A stretch of 48,875 nucleotides of DNA from Gammaproteobacteria bacterium (GTDB lineage Bacteria > Pseudomonadota > Gammaproteobacteria > Steroidobacterales > Steroidobacteraceae). Below the pieces are notes generated by a model that saw nothing but the letters and a program-made list of their open reading frames with translations, made no database searches and was not told the DNA's origin. The translations under genes were made by a program, and so were the position numbers. The stretch is from the NCBI GenBank assembly GCA_021773365.1, contig JAJFKF010000015.1, forward strand, positions 1 to 48,875, written 5' to 3'. Below, piece after piece: positions 45,905-48,875 of this stretch; position 1 is the stretch's first letter; each line of letters starts with the position of its first letter.

Positions 45905-46347
45905 TGGACCTGCAGGACCTCTACCGCGACGTCATCGTCGATCACAACCGCAACCCGCGCAATTTCGGCCGCATAGATCCGGCCGACGCCCACGCCGAGG
46001 GTTTCAATCCGCTGTGCGGCGATCACCTGCAGCTGTGGGCGAAACTCGATGGTGATCGCATCGCCGACGTCCAGTTCGAGGGCAAGGGCTGCGCCATCTC
46101 GGTCGCTTCCGCCTCGCTGATGACCGAGACGCTGAAAGGCCGCTCGCTGACGGAAGTCCACGACTACTTCAAGCAGATACATGCCCTGCTGACCACCGAC
46201 GACTACAAACCGACGCTGCCACTGGGCAAGCTGGCAGCGCTGTCAGGCGTGCGCGAGTTTCCCTCGCGGGTGAAATGCGCCAGCCTGTGCTGGCACACGC
46301 TGATGGCGGCGCTCGACCGCCAGAACAAACCTGTTTCCACGGAATAG
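45904..46347 (+). CDS. sufU: SufU sulfur-transfer protein
   Basis: The 147-residue IscU-fold protein has C38 and D40 (NPLCGD), C63 (GKGCAIS) and the paired C125/C129 (VKCASLCWHTL). It has the extra insertion before the last Cys that marks SufU as opposed to IscU. It accepts sulfur from SufS as zinc-dependent transferase. It overlaps sufS by one base and precedes sufT by 2 bp. Confidence 0.95.
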
Positions 46348-46349
46348 CC

Positions 46350-46901
46350 ATGCGCGCCTACGACAATGAACCGGTGGTCATTCAACGCGACGTCGATGTC
46401 GTGGTCATTCCCGCGGGCATGAACGTGAAGCTGCGCGCCGGCCAGGCGGGCTACATCACCCAGTCCCTGGGCGGCAGCTTCACCGTCTACGTGGAAGGCA
46501 ACCTGTTCCGCATCGCCGGCGAGGACGCCGATGCCATCGGCAAGGAGGTCGTCAAACCGCCGCAACTGCCGCCCGATGCCACCGAGGATGATGTCCGCGA
46601 CCTGGTGTGGAAGCAGATGCGCGGCTGCTACGACCCGGAAATTCCGATCAACGTCGTCGACCTGGGGCTGGTGTACGAGTGCGACATCAGCCGCAATGAC
46701 GACGGGACCCGCAGTGTCGATATCCAGATGACGTTGACGGCGCCGGGGTGTGGCATGGGGGAGATTCTGGTGCAGGACGTCAAGGAGAAGGTGCAGATCG
46801 TGCCGACGATTCGCGAGGTGAAGGTCGAGCTGGTGTTTGATCCGCCGTGGAACCACTCGATGATGTCGGAGGCGGCGCGGCTGCAGACTGGGATGTTGTA
46901 G
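46350..46901 (+). CDS. sufT: SufT, DUF59/MIP18-family Fe-S maturation factor
   Basis: The 183-residue protein has a SufT-specific N-terminal beta region (VIPAGMNVKLRAGQAGYITQ, LGGSFTVYVEGN) and a C-terminal DUF59 domain with QMRGCYDPEIPINVVDLGL and the Cys motif TAPGCGMGEIL. It supports maturation of Fe-S proteins. It is the last suf gene. The two inverted-repeat elements follow 58 bp later. Confidence 0.94.
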   Translation: MRAYDNEPVVIQRDVDVVVIPAGMNVKLRAGQAGYITQSLGGSFTVYVEGNLFRIAGEDADAIGKEVVKPPQLPPDATEDDVRDLVWKQMRGCYDPEIPINVVDLGLVYECDISRNDDGTRSVDIQMTLTAPGCGMGEILVQDVKEKVQIVPTIREVKVELVFDPPWNHSMMSEAARLQTGML

Positions 46902-46959
46902 CGTGGCAGCGGTATGGGTGATGGGGCGCTGGCGCGGGAACTGATTGCCGTGGTGCCTT

Positions 46960-47177
46960 GCCTGGCCATCGGCCGTGGGTGGGGTGTGTTTTCCTCGGCG
47001 CGGGCACCCCATCGTCGAAGGCACAAAGCCGCCGCAGCGTTGTTCCAAATCGAAGGCAGTGCATACCAACCGCCGCTACCCCCATGCTGATGGCACCGGC
47101 GGCGGACCCAACCTCGCGATGTCAGCAGAGAGCCCGCGCCGAGGAAAACACACCCCACCCACGGCCGATGGCCAGGC
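46960..47177. repeat. 218-bp element A: 46-bp perfect inverted-repeat arms around a 126-bp core
   Basis: Arms 46960-47005 and 47132-47177 are perfectly complementary over 46 bp. The core 47006-47131 is about 75-80% identical to the core of element B and contains GGCACAAAGCCGCCGCAGCG, identical in both. No protein motif is visible in any frame, and frames across it have no family resemblance. It occupies most of the first half of the 606-bp non-coding stretch between sufT and sdaA. Confidence 0.95.
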
Positions 47178-47252
47178 TCACCACCGAAGCCGGCAGTTCC
47201 AGAGTCGTTGCATCACTTTCTTCGGTCAGACAGCGGGCATTGCCCATTCAAC

Positions 47253-47470
47253 GGCTCCAGCGACGAGCGGTCGGGGGGCGGTTCGCGCGGCGGCGTGGCC
47301 GCCCATTGTAGAGGGCACAAAGCCGCCGCAGCGTGACCCTTCATCGAAGGCAGTGCATCTCAAGCACCGCTGACCGCATGCTGATGGCACCGGCGGCGGA
47401 CCCGCACCGCGATGCCGGTAGAGAAGCCACGCCGCCGCCAACCGCCCCCCGGGCGATCGGCGCTGGAGCC
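47253..47470. repeat. 218-bp element B: second copy with different, imperfect arms
   Basis: Arms 47253-47299 and 47426-47470 are complementary at about 41 of 47 positions. The core 47300-47425 matches element A in length (126 bp) and largely in sequence. Arm sequences of A and B differ from each other apart from a shared central G-rich run. The 75 bp between the elements and the 37 bp to the sdaA stop hold nothing else I can identify. Confidence 0.9.

Positions 47471-47507: not shown

Positions 47508-48875
<1,368 letters not shown>

Follow-up and report, generated by a model that had tools for sequence, protein, structure and literature searches.

Intergenic structured repeats are treated as a recognized kind of element in the consulted parts of a 2008 survey (PMC2267715). 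Among those described, Correia elements (CREE, nemis) of Neisseria comprise, according to the consulted portions of the sources, inverted repeats and a directional core, are mostly intergenic, have end variants, and are reported to invert (PMC2649163, PMC10969869); most are 153–157 or 104–108 bp long, and they often insert at TA with target duplication (PMC2649163). REPs and BIMEs, in the excerpts at hand, are intergenic palindromes that often occur as oppositely oriented pairs and as dimers of unlike partners (PMC3733652, PMC2817692, PMC3116915), with REPs being 20–40 bp in length (PMC3733652). ERIC, RU-1, RU-2 (YPAL), and other stem-loop repeats are intergenic, 100–200 bp long, and foldable as RNA, as far as the sections drawn on describe them (PMC2267715, PMC2759123).

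The element analyzed here was encountered in a contig stretch of 48,875 nucleotides (hereafter, the window). Compared by layout rather than by sequence, and within what the consulted accounts describe, it is like CREE in having inverted ends around a conserved directional core, an intergenic position, and inversion, and unlike CREE in that its modules are ~218 bp, its arms are longer, its modules join into A-B composites, and target duplications were not detected. With BIMEs, as described in those same excerpts, it shares paired palindromic units of alternating, opposite orientation with unlike partners in the genome of the window (G000), and it differs from REPs, BIMEs, and REPINs in that its modules are ~218 bp and contain a long conserved loop. 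It differs from the available descriptions of ERIC, RU-1, and RU-2 (a comparison made at the sequence level via Rfam only) in that a long stem encloses a non-palindromic core of 126 nt and in that a single core goes with two types of arm. A search of the open-license literature in PubMed Central, which is not searchable by sequence, returned no description matching the repeat. We file the element under a known kind, non-autonomous intergenic palindromic repeats, as a new family whose layout is nearest to that of Correia elements and BIMEs.

Two modules lie side by side in the window in the same orientation. Their parts and the flanking genes are as follows:

46275–46901, + strand: flanking gene for an FeS assembly domain protein (Pfam PF01883, E 3.6e-12), which we take to be SufT-like
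46960–47177: module A, 218 bp, comprising left arm, core, and right arm
46960–47005, + strand: module A left arm, pairing with 47132–47177, with an imperfect extension to 46937
47006–47131, + strand: module A core, a member of the core family; the block of arms plus core is inverted against its flanks relative to other places
47028–47034, + strand: 5' side (GCCGCCG) of the module A core helix, with compensatory changes in copy A_C99 and in G004 (a second carrier genome, see below)
47097–47103, + strand (position derived): 3' side (CGGCGGC) of the same helix, with compensatory changes in the same copies
47132–47177, + strand: module A right arm, pairing with the left arm, with an imperfect extension to 47200
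47178–47252, no strand assigned: linker between the modules, with homologous linker sequence at other composites
47253–47470: module B, 218 bp, comprising left arm, core, and right arm
47253–47299, + strand: module B left arm, from the inverted-repeat alignment
about 47300–47425, + strand: module B core, a member of the core family
47426–47470, + strand: module B right arm, apparently followed by ~20 further bases of conserved sequence
47508–48818, − strand: flanking, convergent gene for L-serine dehydratase (Pfam PF03313 and PF03315)

The layout reported in an initial annotation of the window, made from the sequence alone, held up: the two 218-bp copies have cores that are 80.6% identical over 124 nt, the arms of copy A pair at 46 of 46 positions, and those of copy B pair imperfectly, with 4 mismatches and two 1-nt gaps when the frayed outer end is set aside. 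When extended, the inverted repeat of module A reaches 69 nt at 86%, with ends at 46937 and 47200, the extension being weaker than the 46-bp arms. As the annotation had also stated, no gene is visible in the core, and a coding core was rejected because, in the reading frame left open by copy A, TAG occurs in five copies (judged by eye, for that frame).

The window element belongs to a dispersed family and is not a local curiosity. Searching G000 (3.97 Mb, 157 contigs) with core A as the query recovered 17 cores plus one 24-bp match, and a covariance model of the core (R1) recovered the identical 17 cores at E < 1e-15 and, beyond them, three matches that all had E above 3. The 17 cores comprise 11 intergenic places, with two cores at six of these (C47, C102, C134, C99, C150, and C116) and one core at five (C125, C61, C131, C147, and C37). 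A repeat family, one of the options raised in the initial annotation, is therefore borne out, and the core-alone search ran against the outcome that the annotation had named as adverse to it (no further core copies anywhere). Remnants with a single arm were identified on two further contigs (C85 and C151), and, by eye, remnants of a missing partner lie alongside the single cores at C131 and C37. Three contigs end inside or beside an element (L049, C125:11-243; L055, C61:1-157; L058, C151:3443-3490), which suggests that the repeats probably break the assembly and that the true copy number may be higher. The 24-bp match to the core (96%) is at L060:4259-4282 (C121:33258-33281), where the rest of the element and the arms are absent.

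The typical unit in G000 is a composite of ~0.5 kb that comprises module A, a linker, and module B, with different arms and one shared core. Five of the six two-core places are divergent pairs, with each core-sense strand, A and B alike, directed outward from the linker; the sixth is the window, where copy A is inverted. According to simple gene calls, every core-bearing place adjoins a gene end (six convergent, three codirectional, and two for which the contig covers one side only), and none lies between divergent gene starts. Of 10 A modules, 9 have their core-sense strand antisense to the neighboring gene, and the one that departs from this is the window copy. Flanking proteins were identified for 20 genes in G000 and 10 in G004, and these have no Pfam families in common; flanking gene names outside the Pfam identifications (e.g., rpsI and acrB) are our assumption from protein ends. 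Gene order and a 6S RNA-like match beside rpiA (see below) make a gammaproteobacterium the probable host.

The two modules differ in their arms and share their cores. Mean identity of G000 left arms was 0.766 among A copies, 0.903 among B copies, and 0.522 across the two types (the odd B-like copy at C116 was counted in the A-B mean and left out of the B-B mean), whereas core mean identity was 0.749 within A, 0.779 within B, and 0.745 between A and B. Core identities are thus alike within and between types, indicating that cores carry no memory of module type. Furthermore, A and B cores at one place had a mean identity of 0.785 versus 0.738 for the 64 pairs that combine different places, and the true pairing was the best of the 720 possible pairings of six A with six B cores. 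Since arm types and the linker are common to several places, we read the likeness of A and B cores at one place as local conversion rather than as repeated new duplication.

Copy A of the window was inverted in place between its arms. Only in flipped orientation does its right flank, which is the linker, match the left (linker) flanks found at other A modules (z = 17.3 at C102, 9.8 at C150, 4.7 at C116, 4.3 at C99, and 4.0 at C134, versus −0.7 to 1.6 at those five places when not flipped). No flipped match was found at the single modules C147 and C37, and C125 and C61, lacking a left flank, fall outside the comparison. Opposite, gene-side flanks yielded only weak scores (z up to 3.0). Mismatches of the G·A type are kept in the arms of 12 of the 14 analyzed copies and are absent from window module A. 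The perfect stem of copy A thus accompanies inversion and loss of mismatches, which argues for arm-to-arm homogenization; of the two explanations first offered for the stem, function or continual homogenization, the latter accounts for copy A, and selection alone is insufficient.

Covariation of arms inside single G000 copies is real. An RNAalifold consensus pairs the arms, and for 25 of its 52 pairs, which span arms and core, at least one copy shows a both-sided change. Across 36 arm pairs in 15 copies, 96.3% of 535 cells pair versus 78.3% in shuffles, and 24 of the 36 pairs show both-sided changes versus 15.0 in shuffles, with 0 of 500 shuffles reaching either value, in an alignment that mixes both arm types and also supplied the structure. 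A cleaner test matched each left arm to right arms taken from different copies with the same type of arm, leaving out A_C134, whose left arm aligns poorly. Pairing of A arms (8 copies) was 0.930 within copies versus 0.805 between copies (reached in 0 of 5000 permutations), and that of B arms (5 copies) was 0.928 versus 0.853 (reached in 41 of 5000). The truncated C61 and C150-B were left out of the arm analyses; A3 is without A_C134 and the two partial G004 copies, A4 is without C150-B and those same partial copies, and A5 holds the 8 of 24 G004 copies that passed the cut-off. The early claim that arms change while complementarity is kept therefore stands for G000 and does not extend to G004, where pairing is 0.787 both within and between copies. 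Part of the arm difference between the two window copies is a fixed, genome-wide difference between the A and B types.

The second carrier (G004) is a 5.2-Mb genome from another genus of the same family and was found by a weak R1 match (25.7 bits), which its own complementary arms showed to be real. A search with the G004 element recovered at least 24 full, diverged copies plus two partial copies. Their plan is that of G000, with a 43-bp arm, a core containing GGCAC..AGCCGCC and GCACCGG.CGGCGG, and an arm, and full copies in close pairs have the same orientation. Arms are near-invariant (0.987 and 0.990) versus the middle (0.804) and tail (0.786) of the core, and they have fixed mismatches or non-pairing positions and fixed left-right differences. 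With rougher gene calls, G004 elements are mostly intergenic, some apparently between divergent genes, and of mixed orientation; a predicted ORF overlaps an element in two regions (L133 and L134). Partial copies lie directly beside full ones in the same orientation at L131:2560-2680 and L137:1530-1660. Short direct repeats of the type ACCGAAGCCACGCTCTTCACGAACGAAGCCA flank G004 elements, with a small tandem array in L123:2750-2840, and part of this motif is similar to a segment of the core.

Residual arm mismatches were counted in core-sense orientation from an alignment that weights every mismatch equally, with the outermost positions of the arm alignments skipped. In 14 of the 15 G000 copies, 30 cells were of the G·U type and 2 of the A·C type (19 versus 2 when distinct, p 2e-4), or 30 versus 3 cells when A_C134 was kept. 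The G004 counts were 25 versus 0 cells (6 versus 0 distinct), much of this being one fixed site. Copies within one genome are related, such that cell counts are not independent; pooling distinct mismatches from both genomes yielded 25:2 (p 6e-6), and allowing for the overall C/T bias of the cores yielded a one-sided p of 1.4e-4. This bias of C/T over A/G is moderate (49/67 versus 32/64 columns; core transitions by column C>T 30/50, G>A 16/40, T>C 12/18, and A>G 8/25). A pyrimidine bias of this kind would favor T>C over A>G, which is the opposite of the arm pattern: at pairs with a Watson-Crick consensus, 14 uncompensated transitions leave G·U (10 C>T, 4 A>G) and 2 leave A·C (2 G>A, 0 T>C). Since the changes are present in both arms, stronger conservation of the left arm does not account for the excess. 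The excess of G·U over A·C suggests a folded single strand, either RNA or single-stranded DNA. Mismatches of the G·U and G·A types are milder in single-stranded DNA too, and so the result speaks for a folded single strand and not for RNA in particular. Total folding energy showed no preference for the core-sense strand: the copies in which it was the more stable numbered 7 of 14 in G000 and 1 of 24 in G004.

Folded as RNA with its arms, copy A reaches −150.7 kcal/mol versus a shuffle mean of −88.0 (z −12.4), whereas the 126-nt core alone folds no better than its shuffled counterparts, with z of −0.57 on one strand and 0.14 on the other, leaving the core unsupported as an independently stable fold. 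A scan of core helices identified both-sided change in GCCGCCG/CGGCGGC (all cells paired) and in a 4-bp candidate (88% of cells). In the former helix, 99.4% of 175 cells pair and two pairs are changed on both sides, in an alignment that was fitted to the helix and with the swap of the last pair being essentially one inherited G004 difference; by direct reading, a pair is broken in 2 of 24 G004 copies (L133 and L137). A simple consensus for intrinsic terminators had 3 matches versus 0.6 in shuffles, and a T-rich hairpin precedes the element in L050.

Element places and copy number differ between G000 and G004, and the different places in two genera make past mobility plausible. The suggestion of a non-autonomous mobile element that accompanied the first description is likewise plausible, although no target-site duplication was detected: in six composites, no 2–6 bp repeat exceeded permuted flanks, with element ends that are not sharply defined. 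No place with arms around a gene was found among the matches listed (for G004, 20 of 149 candidates scored, in draft assemblies). Many REP families accompany RAYT transposases, whereas the Y1 transposase (PF01797) was absent from both G000 and G004 (98.95% and 97% complete, respectively) and was found in 5 of 14 control genomes. Membership in REP/RAYT was rejected on this basis and on the basis of module and arm length (218 bp, with arms of 43–46 bp, versus REPs of 20–40 bp).

Taken together, we consider it probable that these are lineage-specific, non-autonomous interspersed palindromic repeats in which a folded core-sense strand, recombination between arms, conversion of cores, and an enzyme acting in trans each have a part. 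The module of ~218 bp is a long imperfect stem (43–46 bp) around a conserved core of ~126 nt with one short internal helix, and the dispersed unit of G000 is mostly an A-B composite with distinct arms, usually in opposite orientation, a conserved linker, and a position after stop codons. The core-sense strand may be, or may have been, recognized as a folded single strand (RNA or single-stranded DNA), such that changes leaving G·U would survive and those leaving A·C would be lost. Recombination between arms would homogenize a module and sometimes invert it, conversion between inverted A and B cores would keep the cores at each place alike, and spread would have needed the putative enzyme in trans. 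A scheme in which the folded core-sense molecule of ~220 nt (RNA or single-stranded DNA) itself spreads through an enzyme in trans, while inverted cores pair and convert one another, so staying matched at each place, and whole modules flip by way of their arms, strikes us as quite improbable. If the preferred reading is correct, three processes that are usually confounded have left separate traces here: folded-strand constraint (wobble bias), homogenization and inversion by the arms, and conversion of cores. In addition, diverged versions at different places in two genera that have no RAYT make the spread of RAYT-less palindromic repeats testable in relatives.

Among the alternatives, a MITE, in which a transposase in trans would act on the arms as terminal inverted repeats, all covariation stems from arm conversion and inversion, and no folded strand is selected, is possible and somewhat doubtful. 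The element is small and non-coding with terminal inverted repeats and many copies, and both the inverted window copy A with its perfect arms and the G004 arms, which are the best conserved part and have fixed left-right differences, are as such a model would have it; however, a MITE gives no reason for G·U-type mismatches to outnumber A·C-type ones, and no target-site duplication was detected in the six composites. The strand-biased mismatches and conserved core, along with core-sense strands that point away from the linker in divergent pairs, would instead suit multi-copy genes for structured non-coding RNA transcribed outward from the linker and having a function in the cell. We regard this as unlikely given that no promoter-like sites of the sigma-70 type were found near the window copies, that there is no Rfam family, that only 2 of 25 genera in the family carry the element, and that the two genomes have different numbers of copies at different places. 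Covariation in the arms of inverted repeats can be over-read as proof of RNA function. A single local duplication followed by random arm decay would account for two adjacent window copies in the same orientation, but A- and B-type arms recur elsewhere and the linker is common to places; it was rejected on the basis of the genome-wide dispersed copies and retains next to no probability.

Searches across many genomes scored only some candidates per genome, so absences are limits and not proofs. No third carrier was detected among 217 genomes of the family. In those genomes, a second model (R2) yielded 8 marginal genomes besides G000 and G004, and the arm scores of their loci were 6–9.5 versus a random 95% point of 10.5, with L089 at 17. 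With R1, 8 of 295 other genomes had matches at E ≤ 0.1, of which G004 alone was accepted (arms were scored for L083, L084, L086, and L089, and for L085, L087, L088, and L090 the judgment was based on the model alignment alone). BLAST against 59 genomes yielded four marginal matches of 34–66 bp outside G000 and missed G004, which was included, suggesting that more diverged relatives may exist. A shorter core query against 21 genomes returned only chance-like matches outside G000, and 10 others of 39 genomes around G004 had short marginal matches. In a sample of 369 genomes from the class, the element's own genome alone matched at E ≤ 0.02, with G004 absent among the matches listed. A core pattern allowing up to 2 mismatches matched 12 of 396 genomes; the 11 besides G000 had one match each at 2 mismatches and were taken as chance, since a reversed control pattern also matched several genomes. 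Three core-pattern matches in a genomic contig collection look by eye like coding DNA. Viral contigs had no matches to two core patterns, plasmids and phages had none to the window element, and a G004 stretch had 6 short matches to plasmids (7–10% of the query).

Rfam covariance models did not match the window element at gathering scores, nor the elements of L048, L050, L052, and L123 at E ≤ 1, and a known RNA family was rejected on this basis. Matches to known RNAs lie near two element places in G000: a SAM riboswitch (78.9 bits) at L052:7954-8086 on the − strand and, beside rpiA, a 6S RNA-like match (42.7 bits, below the gathering score) at L050:6604-6802, also on the − strand.
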